From contig JASSKH010000044.1 in the NCBI GenBank assembly GCA_031763025.1, positions 992,001-1,056,000 on the forward strand: a stretch of DNA of 64,000 nt, read 5' to 3'. Under the pieces are notes generated by a model. It had not been told where the DNA came from, did not search any database, and saw nothing but the letters and a program-made list of their open reading frames with translations. The translations under genes and the position numbers were made by a program. Shown piece by piece: positions 9,929 through 58,852 of the stretch. Source of the stretch: Macrocystis pyrifera. Lineage: Eukaryota > Sar > Phaeophyceae > Laminariales > Laminariaceae. Numbering within the stretch: the stretch's first letter is position 1; every line of letters starts with the position of its first letter.

Positions 9929-9985
9929 CACTAGTAAGTCCGGCGATCTTCTATTGGCAAGCGTAGCCAAGGCCAACCTAGAGAG

Positions 9986-11085
9986 GTGGGAACCTGCTTC
10001 GGCATGCCTAGTTTCGAGGACATGCCCAGTCAAGAAGCCAGCGTGGAGAGTGAAAAGACCATAGAGGAGATGAAGAAGAAAATAGAGGTCCTGGAAAGGA
10101 CGATGGAGGAGCAGAGACTGCGCGCCGAGAGGGACGCGCAGGGGGCAGGAAAGGAAGGGGGGGGCGGTGGGGGGACGAGAGGAGAAGGAACTGCTGGAAG
10201 ACAACAAGCAGCGTCGACGGTGCCGACACCTGGGCTGGAGACCCGATCAGGCATGTCATTACCTTCTTTGTACCGCCCAAGTTTGTCCCAGTCGAGACCC
10301 CCGAAGTTCGATAACGTAGAGCCCCACTTTAGCATGTGGCGTAGTAAGTTTTTGGCATACCTATCATCGCTTGGGTGCTTGCATGTACTCAGTAGCACAG
10401 CAAACCCAGTTATGGTGGGTGACATGAGGGTTTCGCCGGAGGAATTAGCCTCCAGACATTCCCCCCAGGAGATTAGGGACGCGAGATTGGTGTATGGATT
10501 GATGATGAAGGCCATGACAGGATACGATATGGCTGAGTTTAGAATGCAGAAGGCAATGTCTCCGAGTGGTGCTTGGAAGGAGTTGGAAGACTATTACATG
10601 CCGAAGACGATAGCAGCAACACACAGATTGAGGAGGGAGTTTGATACCATCCGAATGACTGAGGATGAAATCCCCTTGCTGTTCCTCGGAAGGGTGGACA
10701 AGGCAGCAGACGAGCTGGCGATGATAGGATGTGGCAAGAGTGCAGAGGAAGTCAACCGCCACATTGTTACCAACCTCTCATCTTTGTATACTATTCAAAG
10801 CAAGTCCATTCTTTCCCGCCCTTCCATCCCCCGTTCCGAGATCGATGAGATCATCCGTGACGCGTATGCTAACGACAAGGTAGAGAAGGAGATGGTTTCT
10901 AGGGCGTTGGGCGTGCAGGGAGTGGTAGGTCAGCATGCCTTGTACGTCGGAGGTGCGCAGTCTGCCGGTGGCGGAGGTGCGGGTCCAGGAGGGGGAAGGA
11001 GGAACAGGAGAGGTGGGAGGCTCAAGGATGGGCAACAGCAGCAGCAGCAGCAGCCCCAACGACAGCAGCAGCAGCAGCAGCAGCC

Positions 11086-11125
<40 letters not shown>

Positions 11126-11617
11126 TATCAGCAGCAGCAGCAGCAATATCAGCAGCAGCAGCCTCAGCAGCAGCAGCAGCACCAACGGCAGCAGCAGCAT
11201 CCTCAACAGCAGCAGCAGCACCGTCCCCATCAGCAACGTGGCAACCGGGGGGGAGGAGCTTCGTCGGGGGGGATAACCGGCCCCAAATGGCGTTGGGATG
11301 CCGTGGCCTGCAGGTACCGTTGGGATGACTCAGCCCCAGACCCCTGCGGTACGGGTGGAGTAGTCCCCCCCATGGGTTGGGTACCTACCGACCCCCCACC
11401 ACCAGGGACGTTGCCGCCGATGCCCCCGCCGCCCGCAGCGACTCCGGCAGGCTGGGGTCCCCCACCGAACAACATATGGAGGCGCAAGGGGCCCTGCTTC
11501 CGGTGCGGCAGACCGGGCCACCACGCCGCGGAATGCCAGGCAGCTCCCGCGCAAATGAATACCGCTTTCCCGGGTGCCGCTTCTCCTCAAGTTGGCTGGC
11601 TGCAGGAGACGCCCTAA
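9986..11617 (+). CDS. copia Gag
   Basis: Part of the copia fossil. The 543-residue frame has an N-terminal charged coiled coil (about residues 15-50), then a Gag capsid-like helical region of the UBN2 type (about 95-310). A basic Gly/Arg stretch is followed by a glutamine-rich run encoded by CAG repeats (about 11035-11230), a Pro-rich segment and a CCHC zinc knuckle, CFRCGRPGHHAAEC, near the C-terminus. Gag forms the virus-like particle and its knuckle binds element RNA. The long Gln tract is unusual for Gag and probably arose by CAG expansion. The minus-strand poly-Leu frame over it is a shadow. Confidence 0.85.
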
Positions 11618-11779
11618 GGCAGTGGTGGGTATACCTCGGCCGGAGCTTCCCCGCCACAGCAACCCTCCTTCAGCACTTCCCCCTCCCCTGGCCCAGCGAA
11701 CAACGGCAACCCTACGCCTACGTTCGATCCGCATCTCCTCACCGCGCAGTTTGCGCACCAAGGCAAGGCGAATGATGAT

Positions 11780-13385
11780 TTGTTTTGGGTTAATGGGAGA
11801 GAAGAGTGGGTAGCGAATTCGGGAGCAACTTTTCATGTGACTGGCAACCCTTTTGGTATGGTAAACTATACTCCCCCTCCCCCTGGTAAGAGCCGTTGGG
11901 TGGTCGGTGACATGAGGTCACTGAAGATAGAGTACTTCGGCCAGATTCAAATTGTGATGCACAGCTCTCAGGGTGACGTTCAAGTTAGGCTGATGGACGT
12001 AGCATACGTACCCGGTGTTCGCTTCAACTTATTTTCGCTTCATGCAGTAATGTTGAAATGCCCGGTGACACTTGATGCTCAGGGAGCTCACACGTTGAAT
12101 GGACAGCTGTCTTTCGTGCGTAGGGACGCGGGTTCATACGTAGACGCCACGCGGATTGTAGAGACCCCGATTGCTGCCGCTGTTTTGGCTCCTGGAAAAA
12201 TGAGGAGGATCGATATTAACGACCTTCACGTTGCCCTTGCCCACTCCCATGCTGACACTCTCCGTGAGACGGCACGCCAGATGGACATTAAGGTTTTTGG
12301 GGAGTTGGTTCCGTGTGCTGGGTGTTCTGAGGCGAAAGGGAGGAGGATGGCGGTGCCGTGGACGACCGAGTGCCGTTCTACCAGGCCTCTGGAACGTCTG
12401 TTCGTGGATCTTTCGGGACAACAGCCTACGTCTGCTGGCGGTGCGTCATACTTGATGATGATCGTCGACGACTACTCGCGACTGGGATGGCCGTATTTCT
12501 TGAAGCGGAAGTCCGACGTCCCAAAGGTCTTCGCTGGTTTCCTGGCCGATATCAACGCGAAGGGTGTGCCGTCCATCGTGGAGTGCCTTCGCTCGGACAA
12601 CGGCACCGAGTTCACCAAGGCGGAGTTCGTGGAGTTGCTCAACCGCCACGGCATCCGCCGCGAGTACACGCCCGTCGATTCTCCGAAGCATGACGGGGTG
12701 GTCGAGCGACGGATCGCCATGACGCTGGAGCTTGCAATGGCGTCCCGCCTGGAGGCCACCCGCCTGTTCTGCGATGCAAGGATGCCGGCGACGCAGCCCC
12801 TCTGGGCTGAGTCATGCGTGTACGCGAGCGATGTGATCAACATGACGGCGAGGGTAAGGGTCAAGCCGGAAATGCACTCGCCGTACCGAAAATTCTACGG
12901 GAGACCACCGTTTGCGCGGCTGCTCCCGTTTCTGAAGCCGGGCTTCCACCACGTCAGGAGGACCCTGAAGACCGAGCCGAAGGCGGAGGCTTGCTTCTAC
13001 CTCAACGGCGGCAACCACCACGCAGCTGACTGCAGCAAGATCCTGCTGATGTCTGGCCGAAGGTCGTTCTCCCGTGACGTCACTTGGGAACACCCGAGGA
13101 AACCGTTTGTGGGGTTACTGCCTTCGGAGGAGGAGAGCTCCCCGCCGTCGCCGTCGCCGTCGCCACCGCCGCCGGGTGCGCCGGAGCCTCTGAGGGGCCC
13201 CGACGTATGGCCTGAGCCACCGTCCCCATCTCCACTGCTGCCGCCGCAACCGCCGTCATCAACGCCGCTACCGCCGCCGCCGCCGCCGTCGCCGTCGCCA
13301 CCGCCATCGCCGTCACCGTCGCCGTCGCTGCCGCCGTCATCGTCACCGCCGCCGCTACAGCCACCGTCACCGCCGCCGCCGTCGC

Positions 13386-13418
<33 letters not shown>

Positions 13419-13969
13419 TATCATCGCCGTCGCCGCCGCAGCAGTCACCGCAGCCACAGCGTTCGCAGCGTGCTGCACGGGCACTGGGTTATTATATCCC
13501 GGACCCGGGGGATGGCGATGTGCTGAGGGGGCGGACAAGGGGGGAGACTGCACGACACCAGGAGAGCGGTGGCGCTGTGCAGAGAGGGCGGACTAGGGGG
13601 GAGACCGCACGACACCAGGAGGGTGGTGGCGGTATGCAGGGTAATCGGGCCAGGGGGGAAGCTGGGCGACATTCGGAAGGTGGAGATGTGCTGAGGGGGC
13701 GGACAAGAGGGGAGACTGCGCGGAACCGCGAGGCTATGGGGCATGGGCTGCTGTCGTTGATGGCAGCGCGGGAAGGTATAGGCCATGTACTTTTCCACCA
13801 AGCCCCACCGCGCGAGAACCCTCCCCTTCCCACACGCCCGGCGAGCGAGCTTTCGACGCCGAACTCGTATGCTGAAGCGTGTGCGGACGAGTATTCGGCC
13901 ATCTGGAGACAGGCGATGGACAAGGAGTACCATGGGCTGGCGGACGCGGGGACATTTGGAGCGAAGTAG
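11780..13969 (+). CDS. copia Pol, protease and integrase part
   Basis: Part of the copia fossil. The frame begins with a retropepsin-like segment (around ANSGATFHVTG) and goes on to a pre-integrase His/Cys region (HVALAHSHAD ... CAGCSEAKGRR). It then carries a DDE integrase core: the first Asp lies in LFVDLSG, the second in RSDNGTEF and the Glu in GVVERRIAMT. The C-terminal part is an extreme proline/serine tract (about 13140-13450, from CCGTCG-type repeats). Four copies of an RGRTRGETARHQE-like 14-residue repeat follow (about 13520-13730). The integrase inserts the cDNA copy. The Pro/Ser tract and tandem repeat between integrase and RT are lineage-specific oddities. Confidence 0.85.
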
Positions 13970-14850
13970 CAACCAGAGGGGCTCAACGTCATCTCGGCGA
14001 AGTGGGTGTTCGCCTGGAAGTCCAACGAGCATGGTGACGTGGTGCGGGCGAAAGCAAGGCTGGTGGCACGAGGTTTCAAGCAGCGTGAGGGTATTGATTT
14101 CTTTGAGACTTTTGCTCCGACGCCTGCAGCGTCTTGTTTCCGTTTGTTGGGTGCTATTGCGTGCGAGTTGGGTTTGGATTTGTGTCATTTTGATGCTGAG
14201 CAGGCGTTCGTGCAGTCGAGTTTGGATGAGGATGTATTCATGCGACTACCTCCCGGCTGCGGCGAAATGTCTGGCAGGTGTCAGGTTGAATCGCAGTCTC
14301 TACGGCTTGAAGCAAGCGTCGAGGTCGTGGCACAACCACCTTCTCACTCACATGAAGAGTCTAGGATTTGAGCAGAGCCCCGCTGACGCGTGTGTCATGA
14401 GGTTGGTCAAGTCGGGCTCTGTCTCCATTGTAACGGTAGTTCATGTGGATGATATTTTTGCTGTAGGACTCAAGGCTAGATGCGATCAGTTCTGTGACGA
14501 CCTGAACAACCTTGTTCCGATCAACAATCTGGGCGAGTTGCGGTGGTATGCTGGTTGTTGTTTTTTCGAGGGATTGGGATGCTGGTACTTTGACGATTTC
14601 ACAGCAGGCGTTCGCTGAAAATACCGCGGCGAGGTTTGGTGTTAGTTCTGGGAGGAATAACCCGCTTTCGACTGGTGTGAAGCTCGAGGAGTTTGACGAG
14701 AATGAATCCGTGGGTGATTGGCCTTTCCGCGAGTTGGTGGGGTGCTTGATGTGGCTTGCGAACCAAACACGACCAGATATTGCGAACGCGGTGAGGGCGG
14801 TAGCGAGGTACACGAATAGGCCGAGGGAAGTACACTGAAAGACAGCAGTC
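13970..14850 (+). pseudogene. copia reverse transcriptase region
   Basis: Part of the copia fossil. Recognisable copia RT blocks include AKARLVARGFKQREGIDF, the FETFAPTPA segment, HFDAEQAFVQ (the first catalytic Asp block) and HVDDIF (the catalytic YVDD-equivalent). The later LMWLANQTRPDIANAVRA stretch is the conserved RT-connection block. Together they place the element firmly in Ty1/copia. The region looks broken and is not presented as a working gene. Confidence 0.8.
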
Positions 14851-15372
14851 GGTATTTTAGAGTATGTATTTTCTACGAGTGATTTCGGCATTACGTTCCA
14901 GAAGGGTAGCGGGTTTGAGCTGGTAGCGTTTGCAGATGCAGACTATGCCAACAAAGCCACTGACAGGAGGTCAGTTTCCGGTGGGGCCATCATGTGTACT
15001 GGGGCGTGTGTGTGCTGGTTTTCTAGGACGCAGAAATGCGTCACACTCTCAACCACTGAAGCCGAATATGTAGCACTGGCAGACACCATCAAGGAGGCAA
15101 TGTTCATGCGCTATGTATGGAGTTTTATTTTTCCGGGTTTTGGGGAGAGATGCATTACGGTTTTCGAGGATAACGAGGGGGCAAGGCACCTGGCACAAAA
15201 TCCAGTCTGCACGTCGAATTCGAAGCACATCGACGTACGACACCACTTTTTGCGCGAGCTTATTTTTAAGGGGGAGTTTGTTATTACCCATGTAGAGTCG
15301 GAGAAACAGCATGCAGACTTCTTGACAAAGCGCTCAACAATACGGTGTTTCGTTACCACCGGGATTTTCTGA
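14851..15372 (+). pseudogene. copia RNase H region
   Basis: Part of the copia fossil. The blocks FADADYANKATDRRSVSGG, CWFSRTQKCV and LSTTEAEYVALAD are the signature of copia RNase H. The terminal SNSKHIDVRHHFLREL block is the usual C-terminal segment of copia Pol. RNase H would degrade the RNA strand during reverse transcription. Confidence 0.85.
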
Positions 15373-15511
15373 TGAATATTTGACACGGTTTTTCCGAGGT
15401 GGAAGGTTTTATGTTATTTTTGAGTGAAGGATTTGTGTGAACTACGTATAAATCCGAAGATGCTGCCGTTTTTCCCTGGCTAATTCCGAGGATGATACCA
15501 TTTCGTTCCTG

Positions 15512-15766
15512 GTGATGGATTTCGAGAGTTTTTGGTGTTTTCGAGTAGTCCCCACGTCAAATAAAATTCAAGTGAAGGAATGTATGCTATCTCGCATTAC
15601 CGTCGCGATCTGTGTATCTATGGCGGGAGTAGGGGGCAAAGGGAGACCCTTGTCCGAGGGAACGGGGTTCCTTGCGATCTCTGGCATTTATTTTCTTGGC
15701 TTAATTTTTATTCTGATGAGTATGACTACTGTGATGTTTTATATGATTTGCATTAATTCCTCATGA
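15512..15766 (+). CDS. Small open frame downstream of copia pol, with a hydrophobic C-terminus
   Basis: This frame of about 84 codons lies between RNase H and the right LTR. Its core, MAGVGGKGRPLSEGTGFLAI, is matched by MTGVGGKRRLLSGGTGFSAI in the nested LTR element at 21375. In both cases a strongly hydrophobic stretch follows, long enough for one membrane segment. The DNA-level match spans about 15568-15695 and 21321-21450. No family is recognised. It may be a short accessory protein, or a conserved RNA signal that happens to be open. Confidence 0.4.
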   Translation: MMDFESFWCFRVVPTSNKIQVKECMLSRITVAICVSMAGVGGKGRPLSEGTGFLAISGIYFLGLIFILMSMTTVMFYMICINSS

Positions 15767-16040
15767 AATAGAGGGAGATCTTTCTGGATAAGGTTGAAGA
15801 GAGACTATGAAGCGCCTGGGGGCGTGTGCGGTCCATAGAAAATGTTTTCTGAGTTGGAGAGTTTGGATAGTATTTTGGAAATTGAGAGTTTGATTTTTGG
15901 TTCTGGAGTGAAATTATGTTTCTGAATTTCGTTTGAGTTGGTCATAATATTGAGATGTTTCCACCCAGCGGAGTCGTACATTGTAGTGTACAGAGCTGGG
16001 GGGATATTAAAGTATGGTCGTGTATAATGAGCAGGGGGGA

Positions 16041-16318
16041 TATTGATTGTGCTCAGAAACACGACGGAGACGTTACATCAAATATTAGGGAGTTCCATAT
16101 ATTGACATAGGATTATAGGAGAGGGATATTTTGTCGGATATTCGGGGGGATAAACGGGAGGTTTATTCCCGCGTCATGTTGGATAATAACCTGCATACGA
16201 TGCATGAGCTGTCACTCGACAGCTCGGATATAATATAAGAAGAGTTCCGTGTTACTGTCTGGAGTCAACCACGCGTTCCCGTGCCAGCTGCGCCTATACC
16301 TTAAGAGATCAATCAACA
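16041..16318 (+). repeat. 3' LTR of copia element
   Basis: This is the 278-bp partner of 9651-9928, preceded by the polypurine tract and followed by the TACAT duplication at 16319-16323. About 97.5% identical to the left copy by eye. Confidence 0.9.
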
Positions 16319-19506: not shown

Positions 19507-19511
19507 TGAGG
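19507..19511. repeat. Target-site duplication TGAGG (left) of the nested LTR element
   Basis: TGAGG precedes the left LTR and is repeated at 21872-21876 after the right LTR. The host sequence on the two sides continues the same gypsy region. Confidence 0.85.
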
Positions 19512-19727
19512 TGTTCGTTGTGCCTCTTTAGCTTGACAGTTACGTGCCGGTTCGGGATATTGGCATATTGTGCATTATGTGATTCTTGACATCTGGGTGT
19601 TATGGGATGACGCACAATGTCACTTCTGCTGTCCCTACCACTGCTGGGAGATAATACAAACGACCTGGATCATCAACTCATCGATTGTCTGAGTGTCTTG
19701 ACTACCTGTGCTTGGGGCTGATGAACA
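19512..19727 (+). repeat. 5' LTR of the nested element
   Basis: A 216-bp repeat with TGTTCG/CGAACA-type ends, matched at 21656-21871. Confidence 0.88.
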
Positions 19728-19989: not shown

Positions 19990-20155
19990 CAGTCGCACCG
20001 CAAAGCTCTGCGAAAGGTGTGGTGGGAGAGGACACGAGAGCAGCAAGTGCGCATCGCCGGCGGACATGGATGAATCGCCGGCGGCGGCCGTGTTTGCGAT
20101 GGTGGGGGATCTCGGAGATGATGTGGAGACGACGGCGTTTTAGAGGCACAGCAGC
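19990..20155 (+). CDS. Gag-type zinc-knuckle fragment in the nested element
   Basis: The plus-strand frame reads CERCGGRGHESSKC, a CCHC knuckle, then an acidic tail (ASPADMDESPAAAVFAMVGD). It resembles the C-terminal part of Gag nucleocapsid. Upstream, near 19757, another frame starts an acidic helical peptide like a Gag N-terminus. As a fossil part it is noted only as evidence of the element's origin. Confidence 0.5.
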
Positions 20156-21641: not shown

Positions 21642-21655
21642 AGAGTCAGGGAGGG

Positions 21656-21871
21656 TGTTCGTTGTGCCTCTTTAGCTTGACAGTTACGTGCCGGTTCGGG
21701 ATATTGGCATATTGTGCATTATGTGATTCTTGACATCTGGGTGTAATGGGATGACGCACAATGTCACTTCTGCTGTCCCTACCACTGCTGGGAGATAATA
21801 CAAACGACCTGAATCATCAACTCATCGATTGTCTGGGTGTCTTGACTACCTGTGCTTGGGGCTGACGAACA
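21656..21871 (+). repeat. 3' LTR of the nested element
   Basis: The 216-bp partner of 19512-19727, preceded by a purine tract and followed by TGAGG (21872-21876). Confidence 0.88.
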
Positions 21872-25226: not shown

Positions 25227-25505
25227 ATGTTGTAAGAAGTTACTACGCCGGGTTATCAATTGGGTGGACAATCGGAAAGGTCGTCCATCATAGGAGGCGG
25301 CATGAGCAAGTGGCCCCCAAGAAAAAGCAGATAATATTATCCGGTCGTGGTCGTCATCATATGAGCAAAATATACTTGGATAAGATCGGAATCTTAGACA
25401 TATGCGCCAATTAGATCAGGAAGATAGGAATTTAATAATTCGGGGCACGAATACGGAATTATGTCGACGGTTGTGTCGACGATGCGGAAAGAACATGGGA
25501 ATACG
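25227..25505 (+). repeat. Coding-like dispersed repeat, copy 2 (no SINE)
   Basis: Closely similar to 5444-5615 joined to 5945-6052. It preserves the empty site of the SINE found in copy 1: the sequence passes directly from GGAATCTTAGAC to ATATGCGCC. The first part stays open in the same frame as copy 1 (RSYYAGLSIGW, VAPKKKQ). Family unknown. Confidence 0.6.
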
Positions 25506-30489: not shown

Positions 30490-31610
30490 GTCCCGTTGCA
30501 GTGCGCGCCTCTGGTTCAGCGAAGCATGTGTCACTATTTGACTCCCTTGTCCGTGTTTCGTGTGCCGTTCATCCGGGGAAGCATGTGCCAAAAATTGGAC
30601 TGTGTGCTGTTGCAGCATGTGCGTCTGCTTAAGAAACTACAGGTGTCGCGACTCGTCGGCGTCCTTGTGCATAATGCATTAGCCGTTATTTCGGGGCAAG
30701 TTTTCACCAGCGGGTTCGTGACCTTCGTGGGTACACCACGTATCGCCGCCGAAGCGGATTTCGTCGGTTCTCGTTTCTTCGTCCGCGTAGCACCCTTCCA
30801 CAGGGGGGACGATGTGCCGCCGCAGTGTGTGTGCCTGCTTCAGCGAAGCAGGTGTCGCATCTTGTTGACTTCCTGGTCCATGTTTTGTGTGCGGTTCACT
30901 CGGGGCAGCGTGTGCCACAAGTTGGACCATGTGCTATTGAAGTGCGGCGCGTCTGTTTCAGCCAAGCAGATTTCGCAACTCCTTGACTCCCTTGTCCGTG
31001 TCTCGTGTGCCGTTCATCCGGGGAAACATGTTCCACGAGTTGGACTGTGTGCTGTTGCAGCATGTGCGTCTGCTTCAGCACTAAAGGTGTCGCGACCCGT
31101 CGGCTTCCTCGGGCATATCACCAGTCGACAAGAGGACGGTGTGCTGTCGCAGTGTGTTCGCCTGCTTCAGCGAAGCAGGTGTCGCATCTTGTTGACTTCC
31201 TTGTCCGTGTTTCATGTGGCGTTCATCCGGCGAGACGTGTGCCACAAGTTTGACCGTGTGCTATTATTGCAGTGCGTACGTCTGTTTCAGCGAAGCAGGT
31301 GTCACTCTTTGACTCCCCGTCCATGTGCCGTGTGCCGTTCATCCGGAGAAGCATGTGTCACAAGTTGAACCGTGTGCTGATGCAGCATGTGCATCTGCTC
31401 CAGCGCTACGCGTCCATGTTTCGTGTGCGTTTGTCGTTCATCCGGGGAAGCGTGTGCCACAAGTTGGACCGTGTGCTATTGCAGTGCGTACGTCTGTTTC
31501 AGCGAAGCAGGTGTCGCAACTCTTTGGCTCCCCGTCCATGTTTCGTGTGCCGTTTATCCGGGGGAGCATGTGGCACGAGTTGGACTGTGTGCTGTTGCAG
31601 AAGTAGCCCA
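30490..31610 (+). repeat. Minisatellite-like array of about 100-120-bp units
   Basis: Phrases such as TGCCGTTCATCCGGGGAAGC, GTGCCACAAGTTGGACCGTG, GTGCTATTGCAGTGCGTACG and TTTCAGCGAAGCAGGTGTCG return repeatedly. Examples of the CATCCGG block are near 30570, 31013, 31220, 31340, 31438 and 31556. Spacings are about 100-120 bp, with longer interruptions. All three plus frames are open for long distances, including one of 290 codons (30496-31368). The unit simply lacks stops, so I treat this as repeat rather than gene. Confidence 0.75.
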
Positions 31611-31639
31611 GGACACAAGGGAGTACGTTCAATTGTGTG

Positions 31640-48205: not shown

Positions 48206-49090
48206 AGATCAGCCTCTCACCGGAAAATAGTACATGGACTGCAACCAAAGCCCGTAGAACCCTCGTAGCCGCCGGAGTGGTAGCACGAGCGATTTCCATG
48301 ACGGGGATTTCCGTCGTACTGCTGCATGTCAGGTAAGGATACAGAAATCCGAGGCAAGTTGACGCCATTTGTTAAGGTCTTAGTCCTTTCGGCTGCTGGT
48401 AAATGGTGACCCAATCGCCTACCCAACCTAATATAATACCATGTGTATATTATTCTTTGCTTCTTGTTTTTATTTCTACCAAGGTATAATTCCACTCCGG
48501 AGCTACTGGAGCCTGTCCTGAGACCACAGAATGCAACGCATTGTAGCGATGGGTTAATGTGTGCGGACACAACAACAATATTTCAAATAGGATACGCATT
48601 GCTCTCGTATACATAACCACTGGGGTTAACGTGCAAATTTGACGTACGAGTATCGATAATCGTCCTTGTTGTTGATGATGATCTCACATTAACTCTCCAA
48701 TCAAAGATCCGTGGTCACACGAATGTGCTGGAGCTCCAGGAAGAATCGAAAAACATGAAAAAAAAACAAAATTCAAGTGAGAAACACGGTGCTCGTGGAT
48801 AAAACCACTACATGTTCATTTTCGTCGTACATGTATGTTGGCCGAACGTATACGACACGGCAACAAGACAGTCGAGTATTTTGCTCGCCACTACTGCTGT
48901 TAATAGCTCAGGGGTGAGGTAGTGGCAAGAGGCCCCTTTCTGTTGGGATTGCACGTATTAGGAAACTTAGCGGACCAAGATTGGTCTTCATTCGGGGTGT
49001 ATATATATATGCATTCTCTTTGTTTCTGAGATGAAGATGAAACAGCCACAAAAGTGAGTGGCAGGTCAAAACGAGATTGTGGATTGATAT
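48206..49090. other. No gene seen
   Basis: Anonymous sequence left of the tyrosine-recombinase element. Confidence 0.35.
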
Positions 49091-49338
49091 GCGGAGTATC
49101 TCTACGTTCACGAGAGATGCATGTTTTGTTCACAACCGACGAATTTAATCATTTATAGTCATGGGCTCTACCGACGGAAACTAATAGCTGAAGTTGCCCA
49201 GAGGCAGAGAGAAGAGAAGAACGGCCACACTCGTCCCGCGCCCCCGCCTAGCTTCTCGTGATAGGTGCACAAGCAGAGCACGGCACTGCTCGCTGCCGAT
49301 TGATAGGCCTAGAGGCTAGGTCTACTGTTGTGGTTTCT
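49091..49338 (+). repeat. Split direct repeat A1 (left terminus)
   Basis: 248 bp, from GCGGAGTATCTCTACG to TACTGTTGTGGTTTCT, identical by eye to A2 at 57959-58206. Forms the left end of the element. Confidence 0.92.
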
Positions 49339-49595
49339 AGCAGCAACTGCGGAGGTCGGCGGGCTACAGCATGCAGCGGGAGGAGGAAGAGCAGGGGCAA
49401 CGAGCGCTTTCCCGGTATGTGGCGAACGAGGGGGGGTCCCGGGCGTTCCCGGGTCTAGACCCCGAACTCGATCACAATGGGGCGTGGGGCGGTCGACTCC
49501 GGTACACAATGATACACGCCCGCAAGCAAGCATCGTTAACTCGCTCGCTCGGGGCGGCCAGCCGTGATTCCCACGTGTTGTGGTCGTCGTACATG

Positions 49596-49662
49596 CACGA
49601 AGTTATTATAGCTGGCACGGGTAGAAGCACGAAGTTATTATAGCTGGCACGGGTAGAAGGCA
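49596..49662. repeat. Two-copy 32-bp tandem duplication
   Basis: GCACGAAGTTATTATAGCTG and GCACGGGTAGAA occur twice in a row within the element's 5' region. Confidence 0.85.
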
Positions 49663-49899
49663 GCTCACGTCCTTTCCCAACCCGCGAATACGCTATACGA
49701 AAGGCTATACTGCGGTATACCTAGGAAAGAAAGACATACCCGGACCTAGAGTACTGGGCATTAATATGGGAACACCGTTGACGCCGGAGCGGAGGGCATA
49801 TGTGGTGTACGAGTATAGGCCAGGTTGGTTCCTTTGCCTTTCTCGCAGACCCCGTACCCAGGAAGACACATTCTCGCATACACCGGTATACATCGCGAG

Positions 49900-50528
49900 C
49901 CACAACGGACTGTTGTACGTACCACAATGCTGTGTCATACACGTTGCGAGACACATATGTACTGCTGTATGCTCCAACTATATACAGGATCGATGGCCAA
50001 GGAATTGTGGCCGGCGCCACTAACGATACGTACAATACAAATCGCGAGACACACTTGTACTGCTGTATGCCCCAACTACAGGGTCGATGGCTAAGGAATT
50101 GTGGCCGGGGCCACTAACGATACATACCATACACATAGCGACACACGTGGACTGCTGTAGGCACTGCTGTAAGCTCCAACGACGCGGTGCCGGCGCACCT
50201 AGAAGCGATATATCATACTATGCATAACGATATATACCATACTCGCATGTGCCAGTGCACTTCTAATACAAGGCGGTCGATGGCGGGGGGGACTTGGGGC
50301 CGGTGTCACTGAGAATACAACTCGCGAGACACAGGGCGTCACGATGTGCGGGAACTCACCACGAACAGACCATACTAGTACGTTCTACTGGTCATATCAA
50401 CAACGCTGTGCCGGTGCACTAAGCGCTATCGACGTTATCGTACGCGTCAAGACGCGCAGGACCTTACTACGAGTAGACCATACTAGTAGTGAGACACTAT
50501 GTGCCACTGTCCGTATCAACAACGGTGG

Positions 50529-50530
<2 letters not shown>
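49900..50530. repeat. Degenerate relatives of the 140-bp satellite
   Basis: Phrases such as GGTCGATGGCxAAGGAATTG, GTGGCCGGxGCCACTAACGA, CGAGACACACxTGTACTGCT and GTGCCGGCGCACCTAGAAGCG are diverged forms of parts of the satellite unit that follows. The left part of the array is therefore an older, decayed edge. Confidence 0.6.

Positions 50531-50572
<42 letters not shown>
50531..50572. repeat. Poly-A tract (about 42)
   Basis: A homopolymer directly before the first full satellite unit. It could be an insertion scar or an expansion of the AAAA phrase seen before the last unit (51671-51678). Confidence 0.85.
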
Positions 50573-50574
<2 letters not shown>

Positions 50575-51800
50575 GGTCGGTGGTGAAGGAACAAGTGCCG
50601 GTGCAGGTCTCGTGGCCGGCGCCACCGCGTCGGCCGGTGACCCGTCCCTCACCACCGATACATACCATGTTCCACTGTTCATATTAATAGCGCTGTGCCG
50701 GTGCACTAGAAAGCGGTCGGTGGTGAAGGACTAAGTGCCGGTGCAGGTCTCGTGGCCGGCGCCACCGCGTCGGCCGGTGACCCGTCCCTCACCACCGATA
50801 CATACCATGTTCCACTGTTCATATTAATAGCGCTGTGCCGGTGCACTAGAAAGCGGTCGGTGGTGAAGGACTAAGTGCCGGTGCAGGTCTCGTGGCCGGC
50901 GCCACCGCGTCGGCCGGTGACCCGTCCCTCACCCCCGATACATACCATGTTCCACTGTTCATATTAATAGCGCTGTGCCGGTGCACTAGAAAGCGGTCGG
51001 TGGTGAAGGACTAAGTGCCGGTGCAGGTCTCGTGGCCGGCGCCACCGCGTCGGCCGGTGACCCGTCCCTCACCACCGATACATACCATGTTCCACTGTTC
51101 ATATTAATAGCGCTGTGCCGGTGCACTAGAAAGCGGTCGGTGGTGAAGGACTAAGTGCCGGTGCAGGTCTCGTGGCCGGCGCCACCGCGTCGGCCGGTGA
51201 CCCGTCCCTCACCACCGATACATACCATGTTCCACTGTTCATATTAATAGCGCTGTGCCGGTGCACTAGAAAGCGGTCGGTGGTGAAGGACTAAGTGCCG
51301 GTGCAGGTCTCGGGGCCGGCGCCACCGCGTCGCCGGTGACCCGTCCCTCACCACCGATACATACCATGTTCCACTGTTCATATTAATAGCGCTGTGCCGG
51401 TGCACTAGAAAGCGGTCGGTGGTGAAGGACTAAGTGCCGGTGCAGGTCTCGGGGCCGGCGCCACCGCGTCGGCCGGTGACCCGTCCCTCACCACCGATAC
51501 ATACCATGTTCCACTGCCCATATTAATAGCGTTGTGCCGGTGCACTAGAAAGCGGTCGGTGGTGAAGGACTAAGTGCCGGAGCAGGTCTCGGGGCCGGCG
51601 CCACCGCGTCGGCCGGTGACCCGTCCCTCACCACAGATATATATACTATGTCCAAAATCAACAACGTTGTAAAAAAAAGGAAAGCGGCGGTGGTGAAGGA
51701 CTAAGTGCCGGTGCAGGTCTCGTGGCCGGCGCCACCGCGTCGGCCGGAGACCCGTCCCTCACCACCGATGCATACCACACACGTTGAGACAACGTAACGC
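50575..51800. repeat. 140-bp satellite, about nine near-identical units
   Basis: Units start with GGTCGGTGGTGAAGGACTAA. The phrase TGGTGAAGGA falls at 50581, 50721, 50861, 51001, 51141, 51281, 51420, 51560 and 51691, so the period is 140 bp with one 139 and one shorter step. Each unit holds CTCGTGGCCGGCGCCACCGC, GGCCGGTGACCCGTCCCTCA and AGCGCTGTGCCGGTGCACTA. It lies between A1 and gag of the DIRS-order element. Confidence 0.93.
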
Positions 51801-52219
51801 TGTATGTGCTACGACGCATGTAGCAGTACCGCGGTGCCGGCGCACCGGAAGGCGGTCGATAGTGGCGGAGTAAGCGCCGGTCCACATCCCGGGACCGGAG
51901 CACCGGCTTACAAGTCGAGTTCGAGGGGAACGCATGCCGGCGCATGCTTCACCCCCCCCACCACCCCCCCCCCCCACCGCCGCCTCTATCCAAGTCATTC
52001 CCTCAAGGGAACGGCTGGGGGACGAGATGCGCGATGCGGAGTACCAAGTTGCTCACCCGTTGACAGGAAGATGCCGGTGCATGTCAACAACCGCGGCGAA
52101 CGCCGGCGCGTACGAACGGAGTGCCAGCGCACATGAGCACGGGGACAAGTAAGCCCCACCCTCGTCCAGGCCGGTGCATGGATAGTGCTCACCGTCGCCT
52201 CTATCTAAAATTCGTTCCC

Positions 52220-52221
<2 letters not shown>

Positions 52222-52266
<45 letters not shown>
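52222..52266. repeat. Poly-C tract (about 45)
   Basis: A homopolymer of C just before the Gag-like frame; another short poly-C lies at about 51950-51977. Confidence 0.9.
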
Positions 52267-52267
<1 letters not shown>

Positions 52268-52269
52268 CG

Positions 52270-53913
52270 TTGTCCGTCGTCGCCGCACCTGTGCCCTGCC
52301 TTGCGTCCGCGCCGTACTGTCGCGCTCAATTTGTTTGTCTTCGCAGGGGCCCGGCAAGAACGACCGCGGAGAGAGGAACCGGGAGAACGCCCGGTAGCGA
52401 CGGTGACGATGAGGCTCCCGTGTCGATAGCAGACTTTGCCACTTTCAAGCAGGAGGTGGCGAACGAAGTCGCCCAGCTCCAGGCGGCCATCCAGCGATCG
52501 GACGAGGCCATTGAGGCCTCGCGTCGCTCCGCCCACGGGGGAAGGGGAGGCGACGCCAGCGGGCCCGGACCGCAGCCCGGTAGCTCCGCTGCCAGGGCCG
52601 CCCCACGGGACCATTCCCCCAGCACCGCCCTACTCGGACCGCCGACCGGACAGCTCTTCGGGAGCCCCGCTGCCGGGGTCCTCCCCCCAGACTCCAGCAT
52701 CGCCGACCAACCCGTCGATGGAGCCGCGGGCGGCCGCGCGGGCCTGCGCGGGTCCCTCAACGCCGCACAGAGCAGGCTCGCCGTAGGCCCGGGGCGAGCG
52801 AGGGACTACGGCGGTACTCCGGGCGGCGCCGGAGCCGCCGGAGCTCCTCTCGGACAAGCAGGCCCGGGGGGCTACGGCGGGATTCTGGGCGGCGCCGGAG
52901 CTGCCGGCCCTCCTCTCGGACAAGGAGGCCAGTTCGCCGTAGGACCGGGAGGGCGGGGCTATGGGAGCGTCTCCAGCGGTATCGAGGCCACCGCGGGCCC
53001 AGCTGGAAGGGCGACCTACGGTGGTGCTCTGGCCGGTACCGGAGCCGCCAGCGTCCACCTCGGCCAGGCGGGCGGGCTCGTAGTGGGTCCGGTGGGGGGG
53101 CTCGGCTACGGGGCATATGCGGGCGGCACCGGAGGCGCCGGCGCATTCTCCGGACAAGTGGGCGGGCTCGCCCTGGGCGGGACAGGAGCCAACGGCGCTC
53201 CATCGGCTGCACTCGGCCATGTGGCCAACGACGGGCCGGGCGGGCTTGCGGTCGGGGCGGATACGTACGGGGACGGCAGCGCCGGCAACCCGTTTACCGC
53301 TCGGGGCAGACAGGTAGAGAAAATAATGACCAACCGCGCGGTGGCCTCGTGGGGCAACCCCGCGACCCGACTTTGGCAGATACTATGCGGCGGCCGCCCG
53401 GCATCGATGCAGCGGGCGGCCGTGCAGGGGTACGTGGGGGCCTCGGTCAACATATCGGCCGGCGTCCATGGCATGCTGGAAGAGCTGGACGACCTCAACT
53501 TTCTGGCCTTCACACCGCGCGGTGGGGCCGGCATCACCCTCCCACTGGCGCAACACCTGAGCATTTTGGGGCACGCGATCGTCACCATCGCGTCCCGCGG
53601 ACTCCGACAAGGGGGTGCGGATCTCCAGGTGGCGCGCGCCCGCTTGGAGGCGCTCGCCCGAGCCTTCAGCGCGGGGGCGACGATCCTCAACGATCACGTG
53701 ATGGAGCACATTGCGGTCGCCGACCGCCCGGCAAACCGGGCCAGGCTGGCGGCTCTGGTGACAAAGGACCTCGAGACCTTCGCGCTCGACCTGCGTTGCA
53801 TCTCCGACTCCTGCGGCCACGCGTGGGCCTACCCCCCGCCGCTGGAGTCCTTCCCCGCCATCCCGGGCCCCGTTGGCCCCGCCTTTCCGGATACGTGGCC
53901 CTCGGCGGTCTGA
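52270..53913 (+). CDS. Gag-like protein of the DIRS-order element
   Basis: This 547-codon frame opens with an acidic, helical segment (ADFATFKQEVANEVAQLQAA and after, about residues 50-80), likely a coiled coil. A long Gly/Ala-rich region follows (about 85-345) made of loose repeats (GYGGILGGAGAAGPPLGQ-like, YGGALAGTGAASVHLGQAG). A globular C-terminal part comes last (about 350-545; TNRAVASWGNPATRLWQIL ... LARAFSAGATILNDHVMEHI), which I take as the capsid-like portion. The frame has no upstream ATG near its start, so the true start is not fixed. The 3' end overlaps a second frame carrying a CCCH finger. Products of this family package the RNA. Confidence 0.7.
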   Translation: MSVVAAPVPCLASAPYCRAQFVCLRRGPARTTAERGTGRTPGSDGDDEAPVSIADFATFKQEVANEVAQLQAAIQRSDEAIEASRRSAHGGRGGDASGPGPQPGSSAARAAPRDHSPSTALLGPPTGQLFGSPAAGVLPPDSSIADQPVDGAAGGRAGLRGSLNAAQSRLAVGPGRARDYGGTPGGAGAAGAPLGQAGPGGYGGILGGAGAAGPPLGQGGQFAVGPGGRGYGSVSSGIEATAGPAGRATYGGALAGTGAASVHLGQAGGLVVGPVGGLGYGAYAGGTGGAGAFSGQVGGLALGGTGANGAPSAALGHVANDGPGGLAVGADTYGDGSAGNPFTARGRQVEKIMTNRAVASWGNPATRLWQILCGGRPASMQRAAVQGYVGASVNISAGVHGMLEELDDLNFLAFTPRGGAGITLPLAQHLSILGHAIVTIASRGLRQGGADLQVARARLEALARAFSAGATILNDHVMEHIAVADRPANRARLAALVTKDLETFALDLRCISDSCGHAWAYPPPLESFPAIPGPVGPAFPDTWPSAV

Positions 53914-53948
53914 TCAACGCCGAAGTCCAGCAACCTCGCCGCACTTCC

Positions 53949-54425
53949 GCCATGATGGCCGGGGTCGGGGCCGGTGAATGCCGGCAATGGGGGAAGACCG
54001 GCAAGTGTCGCTTCGGTGACGCCTGCGTGTTCACCCACGTCGGCCCCGCCCGCAAGACGAGCAGCGGCAACAAGCGCAAGGCGGCTACCGGCGGGGGATC
54101 GGCCGACAGCGGCGTCGCAGCCAGCGGCGCGGCATCCGGGGAACCCCCGGCCAAGAGGGCCAAAGGAAAAGGAAAAGGGGGGGGGGGGGCGGCGGCGCGA
54201 GTAACGGAAGCAGCGGCGGCGGCAGCGGCGGCAGTAGCAGCGGCAGCGGTAGCGGCGGTGGTTCCGGCAGCGGCGGCAGCGGCGGCAGCGGCAGCGGCGG
54301 CGGCAGCGGTAGCGGCAGTGGCAACGGGGCGTCGAGCGGGGGGGCTTTCACTCGCTCGGCGGCGGCCAGGGCTGACGAATAGGGGGACGGGCCTCGCCCC
54401 TCAGCAGGGGCGAGACCGATCGTAG
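53949..54425 (+). CDS. CCCH zinc-finger frame overlapping the Gag end
   Basis: In a frame overlapping the Gag-like one, the sequence 53979-54038 encodes CRQWGKTGKCRFGDACVFTH, a C-x8-C-x5-C-x3-H finger of the RNA-binding type. A Lys-rich nuclear-localisation-like segment follows (PPAKRAKGKGKG), then a low-complexity run from GGCAGC repeats. It probably supplies the nucleic-acid-binding end of the Gag product. A CCCH rather than CCHC finger here is unusual. How it is expressed relative to Gag is not evident. Confidence 0.55.
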   Translation, partial: AMMAGVGAGECRQWGKTGKCRFGDACVFTHVGPARKTSSGNKRKAATGGGSADSGVAASGAASGEPPAKRAKGKGKGGGGAAARVTEAAAAAAAAVAAAAVAAVVPAAAAAAAAAAAAAAVAAVATGRRAGGLSLARRRPGLTNRGTGLAPQQGRDRS

Positions 54426-54496
54426 GGCGTACGGAAGCAGCAGCGCGAGATGCACAGCTTGCACGTCCGGGGCCGGCGTCCGTTGGGGGACCAGGT

Positions 54497-56701
54497 GTGA
54501 CGAGTACGTTGGAGCGTTGTGTGGTATTGTTGCGCGATATGCAGCACGTCGCATCCCCTACTAGCGCGTTTCGGTCGGAGATTATGGACCGCGTAGCTCA
54601 ACAGTATGTACAGTATTTTCGGGCGAGCGGTAGCCATTTTGGATGTATGCCGGCCATCGAGACATCCCTGAACGTCCCGCGTGTGAAAGCAGCTAGGATT
54701 CGCTTTTGGTTCGGACGACAGAAAGGGTTCCCTGGGGTAGAGCAGTTAGCGGAAACCGTCGAACACGGCGCGCCCGTCCACGTGGAGGGGAGCACAGACA
54801 TTGGGGCGGCCTTGGCATACTCAAACCATAGCAGCGTAGCCCGACACTCTGACACTATAATCGCGAAGATTTTTGACGACGTACGGTTTGGGCGGGCAGT
54901 CATATTTCCGCGCAGCGAGGCGCACACCATTCCCGGCCTGCGGCTGTCTCCGCTAGCCGTGATTGTATCCCCGTCAAAAACCCGGATCATCCACGATCTG
55001 ACGTTTTCGTCGTCGCAGTACGCCCACAGCGTCAACGCGGATACTGACTTCGAGCGAGCCCCCCCCGTGGCGCTGGGCCACGTGTTGCGAGACGTTATTT
55101 GGCGCATCCTGTACCTGCGTCGGCGGTTTGGACCGAGCGCGCGTATTGTGTTGAGCAAAATCGATGTCACCGAGGCCTTCCGTCAGGTTAGCGTACAGTG
55201 GGCAGGGGCGCCCGTATTTGGATATAGATTTCGCGAGTGGATTGTGACCGACCGCCGGCTCCAGTTCGGATGGCGCAGTTCACCGGGGTTCTTTTGTATG
55301 TTTTCGGCAGCCCTCGAACACGCGCATGGCCACACGTCGTACGAAGATGCTGTGGTGACGGAACAGGGGCGTATCGCGACGCAACACGTCGCGGTCACCC
55401 CGCCGAGGGCAACCGACCGGCCGAACCCCTTGCCACCTGGGTGCCGGGTCCCCGTTGGGAAGGGAGGGGGGAGGCGTAGCCAATTTTTCGCGCGGTATTA
55501 TGTAGATGACGGGATACTAGTGGAGGTACAATGGTGGCCCGACGGTCGGCGCTGTAGACGCGCGTCCGCATCTTTGGCGTCGGACCATTTTCGGCTTTTC
55601 GGGGAGAGATCCTCACGGGACCCCCCTCTGCTGTCTTCTCGAAAGATATCACAGTGGGACACCGTGTTGTGTGTGCTGGGGTGGGAAATTGATACCGTGG
55701 CAATGACTATTTCCGTTCCCGTAGCCAAGCTGGAGCAACTCCGCGACACGCTGAGCGAGTGGCCTTCGGACCGCGCGTTCGCGTCCGAGGGCGAGCTCCG
55801 CTCTCTGACCGGTCGATTACTGCACTTGTGCGAAGTCGTGCGACCAGGAAAATACTTCGTTCGACGCATGCTCAACCAAGTAGGCCTGGCTCCGGTGCGC
55901 GCGTGGAGCGAGAAGTTCCACGTGCCGCACGCGCGCGCGGCGTCGTCCTCACGGATCCAATTGGGCCCTGAGTTCCACGCCGACGTATCCTTCTGGCGTC
56001 TGTTGGTAGAAGGAGGGCTAGGCTCCGTGGCGGGTCGCCTCTCTGCCCCCCTGTTCCGAAGTTACATGCAGCCGCCGGCGTTTACACTGTGGTCAGACGC
56101 TTCCGGCGACGCCATGGGGGGTTATTTTTTGGGGCCCGTTCCCGGGGCCGGCGTATGGTGGCGTGTCGAATTTAACGCCGACGTCCGCGCTCGCCTGCGC
56201 GAGAAGGTTAGTGGTTGGAACGATCTGTCGATTAACGTGCTCGAGTTGCTGGGCATGGTCGTAACAGCGTGGATATTCGTGCACCAGTCGGACGCCCAGC
56301 CTAGCTACGCGCGGGATACCATCCTGATGCGGGGAGACAACACGTCCGCTGTGCACTGGGTCTCCAAGTGTAAGGGGGGTAGGGAACCCCGATCGGGGGC
56401 ACTCATGCGCCTTCTAGGGTGCATGGAGGTAGGCAGTGGATGGTGTTTCGACGCGTTGCATGTCGCAGGCGTGGAGAACACCATTGCCGATGGGATATCA
56501 CGGTGGAAGCCCGATGTGATCGACGGTAACCTCCGCGCGTCCCGGCCCGATGTTGCTTGGCGCCGACAGGTCTTGGGGCCAACGGGCGTCGCGCTATGCT
56601 CAGGAGTGCTGGCAGCCAGCTCATCCGCCAGTCGGTTGCGCCGTCGTCTCACCGAGCTTATACGTCAGGTTTCCGGTCTTGGACCGCTTTTCGGGGGTTG
56701 A
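54497..56701 (+). CDS. Reverse transcriptase-RNase H of the DIRS-order element
   Basis: A 734-codon frame. RT blocks in order: PSKTRIIHDLTFS (about residue 155-168), SKIDVTEAFRQV with the first catalytic Asp (about 220), QFGWRSSPGFFCMF (about 255-270) and RYYVDDGILVEV with the catalytic YVDD (about 335). The thumb region GWEIDTVAMTISVPVAKL follows. RNase H follows with SDASGDAMGGYF, NVLELLGMVV, RGDNTSAVHW and IADGISRW, giving the D-E-D-D set. Sequence style and domain order are those of DIRS-type enzymes, which copy the element RNA into a circular DNA. The last 145 bp overlap the recombinase frame. Confidence 0.88.
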   Translation: MTSTLERCVVLLRDMQHVASPTSAFRSEIMDRVAQQYVQYFRASGSHFGCMPAIETSLNVPRVKAARIRFWFGRQKGFPGVEQLAETVEHGAPVHVEGSTDIGAALAYSNHSSVARHSDTIIAKIFDDVRFGRAVIFPRSEAHTIPGLRLSPLAVIVSPSKTRIIHDLTFSSSQYAHSVNADTDFERAPPVALGHVLRDVIWRILYLRRRFGPSARIVLSKIDVTEAFRQVSVQWAGAPVFGYRFREWIVTDRRLQFGWRSSPGFFCMFSAALEHAHGHTSYEDAVVTEQGRIATQHVAVTPPRATDRPNPLPPGCRVPVGKGGGRRSQFFARYYVDDGILVEVQWWPDGRRCRRASASLASDHFRLFGERSSRDPPLLSSRKISQWDTVLCVLGWEIDTVAMTISVPVAKLEQLRDTLSEWPSDRAFASEGELRSLTGRLLHLCEVVRPGKYFVRRMLNQVGLAPVRAWSEKFHVPHARAASSSRIQLGPEFHADVSFWRLLVEGGLGSVAGRLSAPLFRSYMQPPAFTLWSDASGDAMGGYFLGPVPGAGVWWRVEFNADVRARLREKVSGWNDLSINVLELLGMVVTAWIFVHQSDAQPSYARDTILMRGDNTSAVHWVSKCKGGREPRSGALMRLLGCMEVGSGWCFDALHVAGVENTIADGISRWKPDVIDGNLRASRPDVAWRRQVLGPTGVALCSGVLAASSSASRLRRRLTELIRQVSGLGPLFGG

Positions 56702-57702
56702 TAAGGGAGGCTCCGTATTTCGACACGTCAGCCTCCAATTCCGATAAGATTCAGGCGTTACTTGAGTTCGTAGCGTGGTGCGCGTCGGAGGGCAATCAAG
56801 CCGGCACTATAGCCAGTAAATTATCAGCTGTGTTGCACTTTCACCGCGTGAATGTGCAGATGGAGTTGCCCACGTCGTCGCCGCTTGTCAAACGCGCTTT
56901 AAAAGGGGTGTCACGGTCGCACGTTGTCGCCGGTACCCCGAAAAGAATTCGGCGCCCTATATCGTGGGTCACGTTGTTGGAAGGACAGGGCCTGGCCCTG
57001 TCGTGGGGCCCGGGCGGCCGAGTGCTCTGGCTGTCGCTAGCGTTGGGCTATTTTTTCATGGCGAGGTCTGACGAAATATTCGCCTCCTCGTCCGGGGTAG
57101 TACACCCCGTGCATTGCTTGACGAGGGGGGACATAGCGTTGTTCGCGGGGGGACGGCGGTTGAACTCGGCGCAGTGGCACCAGGCTACCAGCATCGAGGT
57201 TCTATTTCGAGGCCATAAAGGCGACCAGGCTCAGCAAGGATCGGTTATCGTGCGCACACGGGACGACGCCTTCGGGGCGCGTTCCGGGGTAGGAGCAGGC
57301 GGCGGCGCCGTCGCTCTTATGGTGGAGTTGCTGTCGGGATATCCGACGTTGCCGGAAAGCGCCCCCCTGTCGTCGTATCGGTACGGTAATGAGGTCAGAG
57401 TGTGGGGGTACACGGAGGCCCTCGGGGCACTCCGCGAAGTGGTTGCCGAAGCAGGAGACGATCCCAGCGAAGTCGGCCTCCACTCATTGCGTATCGGCGC
57501 AACCACTACTCTAGCGGCGGGGGGGGAAGTACCGCAGAGGGTGATTCAGAGAGAAGGTAGATGGAAGTCCCCAGAGTCTTCCAAGACGTACACCCGCAAT
57601 AACCCAGAGGACGCGGGTATCGTATCTCGTAAACTAGCAGAGACGGATAACATAGGGCAGAGGCAGCCAGGCCAGGGTACTGTCTGGGGCCAAACACCGT
57701 AG
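56557..57702 (+). CDS. Tyrosine recombinase of the DIRS-order element
   Basis: A 381-codon frame overlapping the RT-RNase H end. The N-terminal core-binding part (SSHRAYTSGFRSWTAFRG ... LLEFVAWCASEGNQAGTIAS) precedes the catalytic domain. The catalytic set is visible: Arg in FFMARSDEI, His-x-x-Arg in GLHSLRIGATT, GRW in REGRWKSP and the nucleophile Tyr in SSKTYTRNN. This enzyme replaces the DDE integrase of LTR elements and inserts the circular intermediate without target duplication. Its presence, together with the split direct repeats, defines the order. Confidence 0.9.
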   Translation: MAPTGLGANGRRAMLRSAGSQLIRQSVAPSSHRAYTSGFRSWTAFRGLIREAPYFDTSASNSDKIQALLEFVAWCASEGNQAGTIASKLSAVLHFHRVNVQMELPTSSPLVKRALKGVSRSHVVAGTPKRIRRPISWVTLLEGQGLALSWGPGGRVLWLSLALGYFFMARSDEIFASSSGVVHPVHCLTRGDIALFAGGRRLNSAQWHQATSIEVLFRGHKGDQAQQGSVIVRTRDDAFGARSGVGAGGGAVALMVELLSGYPTLPESAPLSSYRYGNEVRVWGYTEALGALREVVAEAGDDPSEVGLHSLRIGATTTLAAGGEVPQRVIQREGRWKSPESSKTYTRNNPEDAGIVSRKLAETDNIGQRQPGQGTVWGQTP

Positions 57703-57926
57703 TATCGACGCGACCGCGGTATGGGGGGTATGTCAATGGTTTTCTACCATTGGGGGTCTCGGTCGCCCGAGACTGCGTTTGTTAGAGCCCCGGCCAGTCG
57801 GGGGGGGGGGGGGGGAACGCCTGGGTACTGGCAGTACGATAAGGCAACGAGAGTCAGCGGCCGGTGCCGCGGCTCTCGTACCACGCCAGGAGACTCCCCC
57901 CCCCCCCGACGTCGGAGAGAATAATA

Positions 57927-57958
57927 ATAACATGACAATTCGAAGGATATACAACAAA
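57927..57958 (+). repeat. Split direct repeat B1
   Basis: 32 bp, ATAACATGACAATTCG to GATATACAACAAA, directly abutting A2 and identical to B2. Confidence 0.92.
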
Positions 57959-58206
57959 GCGGAGTATCTCTACGTTCACGAGAGATGCATGTTTTGTTCA
58001 CAACCGACGAATTTAATCATTTATAGTCATGGGCTCTACCGACGGAAACTAATAGCTGAAGTTGCCCAGAGGCAGAGAGAAGAGAAGAACGGCCACACTC
58101 GTCCCGCGCCCCCGCCTAGCTTCTCGTGATAGGTGCACAAGCAGAGCACGGCACTGCTCGCTGCCGATTGATAGGCCTAGAGGCTAGGTCTACTGTTGTG
58201 GTTTCT
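57959..58206 (+). repeat. Split direct repeat A2
   Basis: 248-bp copy of A1, directly after B1. The B1-A2 join mimics the circle junction. Confidence 0.92.
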
Positions 58207-58211
58207 CCCGC

Positions 58212-58243
58212 ATAACATGACAATTCGAAGGATATACAACAAA
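58212..58243 (+). repeat. Split direct repeat B2 (right terminus)
   Basis: 32-bp copy of B1, five bases (CCCGC) after A2. Forms the right end of the element. Confidence 0.92.
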
Positions 58244-58478
58244 ATGCTTTGTTTGGTTTGCCGGTTATTTTTCCCTTGGTTCTTAGTCTTACCCTGTTGA
58301 CGACTAGTGGTGCTTTATTCTTTTTCCTTTTTGTTTCTAGCTCCTTCTTTTCGAGTGTCTGCCAGATCCCCTGCGGAGGGGGTACGATGGTTTGTTGCTA
58401 TATATACATATATACAAGGTTCCCCTCCGGGAGGTGCCGTATTAATAGGGGAGTGGCGCAAGAGCGAAATTACTATTA
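58244..58478. other. Right flank, no gene seen
   Basis: T-rich sequence, then a CCCTCCGGGAGG-like palindrome near 58420; nothing else recognised. Confidence 0.35.
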
Positions 58479-58577
58479 CGGGGGTCCATAGTTAATGGGA
58501 CCAAAATTTGTTAAAAAAAATAGGTAAATATCTAGGTCTTTATTAATACCATAGGTCCTGTTAACTATGGACCCCCG
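58479..58577 (+). mobile_element. 99-bp MITE, copy 4 of 4
   Basis: Same length and orientation as copy 1, with nearly perfect inverted ends (CGGGGGTCCATAGTTAA). The flanks AATTACTAT and ATAGTAATT are also inverted, so the whole palindrome extends beyond the TA. Youngest-looking together with copy 1. Confidence 0.85.
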
Positions 58578-58852
58578 TAATAGTAATTGTTGGTAATGAG
58601 GCGCGACCTCAGCAATACCCCTGCAGTAGCCATATCTGCGATGCATCATTCAAAACATTTGTCCTGAACCAACACGAACGAACATCTACTGCTGCTGTAC
58701 CTACTATCTATACGCCGTCGTTGGTGAATCTCATAACCGTAAATATTCTTGGCATCATATCCTGCTCTTGAAAAACACAGACAGCACAGCAGTACGGACA
58801 CACCTGTAACAAATACCAGGTACTGGATTTTGTCGTGTGTATACTGGTATTT

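Follow-up and report, generated by a model that had tools for sequence, protein, structure and literature searches.

The 64,000-nucleotide window (the whole stretch of DNA analyzed here) contains, on its forward strand, a 9153-bp element at positions 49091–58243, delimited by repeat comparison and organized as A1-[ORFs]-B1-A2-B2. A 248-bp repeat forms the 5′-end of the element (A1, 49091–49338) and recurs as A2 (57959–58206), while a 32-bp repeat is found as B1 (57927–57958) and again as B2 at the 3′-end (58212–58243). Both pairs are identical throughout, matching at 248/248 and 32/32 positions, respectively. B1 adjoins A2 with a gap of zero, and the 5 bp between A2 and B2 read CCCGC (58207–58211). 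The original prediction of split direct repeats defined to the base is therefore borne out. Could A and B be unrelated dispersed repeats that flank retroelement genes by accident? We found nothing in favor of this idea and regard it as extremely improbable. Two exact repeats interleaved as A-B-A-B are far beyond what chance could produce, the abutment of B1 and A2 is exact, and the window holds no further copies: 16-mers taken from A and B (one per 8 bases) occur nowhere else in it on either strand, and blastn of A and B against the window revealed no extra copy among the matches listed, which omit those starting at 49001–52399, A1 included. Because the repeat copies are identical, the insertion is judged to be recent. 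With zero differences in 280 repeated bases, the divergence since insertion is at most ~1.1% by the rule of three, in agreement with the earlier description of the element as young.

Four ORFs, all on the plus strand, make up the coding part, and the reading frame differs at each step from one to the next (frames 1, 3, 2 and 1). The third, in frame 2 (54383–56701, 772 aa, first ATG at 54539), encodes RT and RNase H. Its RT part contains SKIDV, FGWRSSPG and YYVDD (YYVDDG at residue 372), and four acidic motifs of RNase H follow, at residues 570, 617, 650 and 701. The fourth ORF, in frame 1 (56530–57702, 390 aa, first ATG at 56596), encodes a tyrosine recombinase (YR), with the motifs arranged in the order Arg motif (MARSDE, residue 177), His-Ser-Leu-Arg (HSLRIGA, 318), Gly-Arg-Trp (EGRWKS, 342) and Tyr (KTYTR, 352). 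We take these RT, RNase H and YR motifs to be the catalytic ones. The YR frame opens inside the RT frame, with 172 nt in common. Pfam matches were obtained for RVT_1 on the RT ORF (E 0.054) and for Phage_integrase on the YR ORF (E 0.001), both under the curated cut-offs; for the RNase H part no Pfam family matched. The sole NCBIfam match was XerD, for YR, at E 0.24. Comparison of YR with solved structures gave no match, and five structure matches of the RT-RNase H ORF to phosphoserine phosphatase (E 0.18–0.2) were taken as chance. AlphaFold2 models built from single sequences had mean pLDDT values of 31.7 and 34.3 and were unusable. Together with the repeats, the RT, RNase H and YR motifs support the proposal that the locus is a tyrosine-recombinase retrotransposon with split direct repeats.

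Searches for relatives of RT-RNase H and YR in the collections viral_contigs, genome_contigs and phages found none. In viral_contigs, the C-terminus of YR, a portion of gag and the B repeat as exact DNA were likewise without a relative. Peptide-pattern scans for relatives matched 2, 2, 37, 10, 31 and 34 stretches, and 0 were confirmed. Since the collections consist of viruses and prokaryotes, absent relatives say little about eukaryotes.

The second ORF, in frame 3 (53952–54425, ATG at 53952), carries a CCCH finger, CRQWGKTGKCRFGDACVFTH, at 53979, with the spacing CX8CX5CX3H. It passes the Pfam zf-CCCH cut-off (25.0 bits versus 20.5), confirming that the finger noticed at the outset is real. 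A codon model that had the RT and YR frames as its training set, and is thus independent only outside them, ranks frame 3 weakly best of the plus frames over 53891–54310, and some minus-strand frames score equally in the CCCH part. A Gag zinc finger is on record for Pat1 in the accessible text of PMC4157794. For a CCCH finger in Ngaro elements, a direct search of the open literature, mostly papers outside subscription, yielded only an apparently unrelated paper on coffee.

In the region 54374–54440, frame 2 is interrupted by a UAG at 54380, with a Gly/Ser-rich stretch before it and the RT ORF after it, and a G13 tract (54177–54189) lies upstream of this UAG, an arrangement that resembles a recoding site. 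A 9-bp hairpin in the overlap of the CCCH and RT ORFs (54393–54414), 10 nt after the UAG, was considered as a possible recoding signal and rejected, as it is not significant: its z-score is −1.53, and 15 out of 200 shuffles fold equally well. In-frame slippery heptamers number four in gag at 53500–53913, three in the CCCH stretch and zero in 56500–56701. They were dismissed as a sign of frameshifting because they are uninformative in GC-rich DNA, with 11 also present in gag from 52347 and seven in the RT ORF.

The first ORF, an open frame 1 at 52186–53913, is gag-like, although its first in-frame ATG is found only at 53326. No Pfam family matched it at E 1 or below. The codon model is weak here: all three plus frames are negative in windows over 52451–53230, and frame 1 is positive over 53291–53830, the 3′ part of gag. 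A good splice acceptor, TTTGTTTGTCTTCGCAG|G, ends at 52346, ahead of position 52347. Because gag lacks an ATG for 326 codons past this acceptor (from 52348), the 2.9 kb ahead of gag may partly or wholly represent an intron. This region had been described as a leader with a satellite. The satellite part of the description stands: a 140-bp unit is repeated in 8.7 copies at 50575–51777 with 95% matches, neighboring units are 98.6–100% identical (five units compared), and degenerate related units extend upstream, from about 50161. The leader part is in doubt, given the acceptor and the absence of an early ATG.

How might such an intron be arranged? A candidate first exon of gag at 49371–49414 begins with an ATG (base 33 past A1) and ends before donor 49415 (GGTATGT); it is open, and its phase fits acceptor 52346. 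The corresponding 2932-bp intron (49415–52346) would take nearly the whole leader, satellite included. Alternatively, donor 52149 (AAGTAAGC), which pairs with an ATG at 51934, 52027 or 52081, would leave an untranslated leader and define a 198-bp intron (52149–52346) containing the C45 tract, or there may be no intron. There are thus four open, phase-compatible ATG–donor pairs (three on one donor); mononucleotide shuffles average 1.28 such pairs, and 8 out of 100 reach four. This excess is suggestive of an intron before gag, though no proof. Sites as strong as the acceptor number four in the interior of the element and 40 in the window, itself included in both counts.

The main rival to an intron is that the start of gag has been lost, or is masked by miscounted homopolymers. 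A related view is that the copy is immobile, its gag having lost the start or acquired indels at homopolymers, with only its ends and the RT-RNase H and YR frames looking whole. This view concerns activity, so it is compatible with the assignment to Ngaro made below, and we consider it possible but rather unlikely. It draws on the lack of an ATG in gag before 53326, on the change of frame between gag and the CCCH part, and on the homopolymers A42, C45 and G13. Against it, the insertion is recent, with identical repeats, and splicing or reinitiation could account for the frames. Accordingly, the original description of the element as whole holds for its ends and for the RT-RNase H and YR frames, whereas for gag, with its first in-frame ATG at 53326, it is unproven.

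We also surveyed the rest of the window. EsV-1-7 is a brown-algal pattern; its one match has a stop directly after it and was not counted. Of the 39 ORFs of at least 150 aa outside the element, 29 were scanned and none was recognized as a host gene; their matches were to LTR-element proteins, along with weak ones to DUF6785 (E 0.002), DUF4389 (E 0.013) and DBI_PRT (E 0.044). Searches for tRNAs and Rfam families gave no match. A Copia-type LTR retrotransposon occupies 9651–16317; its 277-bp LTRs (9651–9927 and 16041–16317) are 98% identical, and a gag with a CCHC knuckle, an integrase core and a piece of RVT_2 are in separate ORFs. Direct repeats of 218 bp at 19510–19727 and 21654–21871 are 98% identical, lie 2144 bp apart and have a CCHC motif between them at 20009. 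This region looks like a Gag-only LTR element of the LGA/LARD kind, and the repeat pair recalls the LGA elements reported for Ectocarpus in the accessible part of PMC3145265. Judging by these neighboring elements, the host may be an alga, perhaps a brown one. The regions 5444–6053 and 25227–25505, about 19.5 kb apart, share direct-repeat pairs of 143 nt (95%) and 109 nt (94%) and probably represent a single repeat present twice, with an indel. A tandem-like array with units of about 100–118 bp that are 65–91% alike lies at 30533–31618. The sole inverted-repeat pair found is located outside the element, at 58468–58588, and perhaps represents a small foldback or MITE-like element.

To which group does the element belong? 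According to the accessible text of earlier descriptions, a methyltransferase is present in DIRS and PAT elements and absent from Ngaro and VIPER; the repeats are inverted in DIRS1 and split direct in PAT, Ngaro and VIPER, and in Kangaroo the YR is inverted (PMC4157794, PMC3266345, PMC6681497, PMC9210276). The present element starts with A1 and finishes with B1-A2-B2, the inner repeats being downstream of YR, and RT-RNase H is followed by a co-oriented YR, as judged by motifs, the Pfam scores being under cut-off. The same layout is seen in published Ngaro elements (PMC8547959, PMC9210276, PMC4157794, as far as their text is available). No methyltransferase was matched by Pfam in the 15 of 59 ORFs scanned whole or in part. 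Nor would one fit behind RNase H: its final motif begins 71 residues short of the RT ORF terminus, which lies inside the YR ORF, and only 224 bp remain from the YR stop to B1. The methyltransferase domain typical of PAT (Pat1, TOC) was thus not seen, the Kangaroo arrangement is contradicted by a YR on the same strand with the inner repeats after it, and the inverted terminal repeats with internal complementary regions of DIRS1-like elements were not seen, as no inverted repeat of at least 25 nt lies in the element (seed 14). One usual trait of Ngaro, ORFs without overlap (PMC3266345, in its available part), differs from the 172 nt shared by RT and YR here; it is usual rather than defining, and a frameshifted YR is on record in a fungal Ngaro (PMC3783388, likewise). 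Hence, among Ngaro, DIRS1, PAT/TOC and Kangaroo, Ngaro is the one layout at odds with no structural feature tested, while each of the others disagrees with at least one. We therefore consider it likely, with a probability of roughly 0.8, that the locus is a eukaryotic retrotransposon of 9153 bp, apparently whole and of recent insertion, which is assigned to Ngaro (DIRS order) by its layout. The original assignment, to a split-direct-repeat element of the DIRS order, is retained and narrowed to the Ngaro layout by the absent methyltransferase match, the co-oriented YR and the downstream inner repeats.

Some observations pull against the Ngaro reading. Both the RVT_1 and the Phage_integrase matches are under Pfam cut-offs, the viral and prokaryotic collections gave no relative, the AlphaFold2 models were unusable, gag is without an early ATG, and no two successive ORFs share a frame. 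Moreover, structural features are homoplasious in YR retrotransposons and a Pat1-like lineage without methyltransferase exists (both in the accessible text of PMC4157794), which argues against firm conclusions on descent. The element might then be of PAT type, by Pat1-like or TOC descent, having lost its methyltransferase; it would work alike without being Ngaro by descent. PAT repeats are of the same kind, the Gag of Pat1-like elements has a zinc finger, and the lineage lacking methyltransferase is a derived one in C. briggsae (PMC4157794, same text). PAT-like elements are also described in Ectocarpus, with five families (PMC12477816), and in relatives of Chlamydomonas (PMC8226300), going by the available portions of both. 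However, PAT descent needs an extra loss, and scanning 15 of 59 ORFs revealed no remnant of a methyltransferase, so that we think it quite unlikely. An affinity to VIPER, which begins with A1 and ends with B1, A2 and B2, would account for the same repeats, the missing methyltransferase and a zinc finger in Gag. Yet the VIPER Gag finger is CX2CX4HX4C rather than the CX8CX5CX3H found here, and VIPER is described from kinetoplastids (all in the accessible text of PMC6681497); we regard such an affinity as very unlikely.

Returning to the Ngaro layout, we asked what the repeats predict for a circular intermediate. The B1|A2 junction reads ACAACAAA|GCGGAG. The base to the left of A1 is T, not A, and the base to the right of B2 is A, not G, so that this junction and either end of the copy have no base in common beyond the repeats. 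In DIRS1-like elements, a 3-bp core is common to the junction, ends and flanks, according to the available text of PMC3266345. Because the junction shares no base past the repeats with either end, a core of this kind does not fit the present copy, which indicates that a split-direct-repeat junction need not contain a DIRS1-type identity core. When the opening GC of A1 is included, the flanks have ATGC in common, a likeness that may be fortuitous, and therefore two empty sites are possible: GATTGATATATGCTTTG, a join without overlap, or GATTGATATGCTTTG, in which crossover added AT (or ATGC) or the two partners shared it. A recombinase site formed by an inverted repeat at B1|A2 was tried and discarded, as 676 of 2000 shuffles do equally well.

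By analogy with the published model of the group, RNA would run from inside A1 to inside B2 and be packaged by Gag, the CCCH finger being the likely nucleic-acid-binding part. RT and RNase H would copy the packaged RNA. The internal B1-A2 block, in which the right and left ends are already joined in circle order, would template the missing ends and so close the circle with the junction ...ACAACAAA|GCGGAG.... Finally, YR would recombine this junction with a short site in the genome, and no target duplication of the kind left by the staggered cuts of DDE integrases would arise. The circle model is testable, since the predicted junction can be read from the B1-A2 block. Of the features initially thought to predict the circle, the B1-A2 join does so, as the B2-A1 join follows from it, and the CCCGC gap adds nothing visible.

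A bolder version of the Ngaro reading can be formulated: a lineage in which a CCCH finger replaces the usual Gag zinc knuckle and which keeps a 2.9-kb, satellite-filled spliceosomal intron (49415–52346, from 77 bp beyond A1) throughout its RNA cycle. We consider it unlikely. If the intron were real, the element would need to shield its unspliced RNA, something uncommon in retrotransposons, and a pool of unspliced genomic RNA would be kept apart from spliced gag message in a retrovirus-like manner. If it is not, the locus adds one more Ngaro to a group already reported to be diverse in at least one brown alga.

Compared with known systems, the element is an ordinary Ngaro-layout member of a known group, and what is unusual is its zinc finger and long front part. 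Split direct repeats are shared with PAT elements (Pat1, TOC, Kangaroo), and Pat1 also has a Gag zinc finger; unlike the present element, PAT elements as a rule have a methyltransferase, and in Kangaroo the YR is inverted with the inner repeats between it and the methyltransferase (PMC4157794, in the part available). VIPER has the same A1 ... B1, A2, B2 order and a Gag zinc finger, but the finger is CX2CX4HX4C instead of CCCH and the hosts are kinetoplastids (PMC6681497, likewise). The Ngaro of Cafeteria burkhardae resembles our element in its A1-[ORFs]-B1A2B2 layout, in being GC-rich, and in its Gag-like ORF1, ORF2 with RT and RNase H, and ORF3 with a YR that has His-X-X-Arg and Tyr. It differs in its length of about 6 kb (versus 9.15 kb here), in an RNase H that matches Pfam PF17919 (here no Pfam family matched), and in that a term search of the main text yields no mention of a zinc finger (PMC8547959, as far as available). 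The Ngaro layout is known in animals, fungi, Cafeteria and brown algae, the last from the accessible text of PMC12477816. There, Ngaro elements of Ectocarpus, possibly a relative of the present host, comprise 15 families and 2.45% of the genome, and by anatomy they belong to the same superfamily as the element described here.
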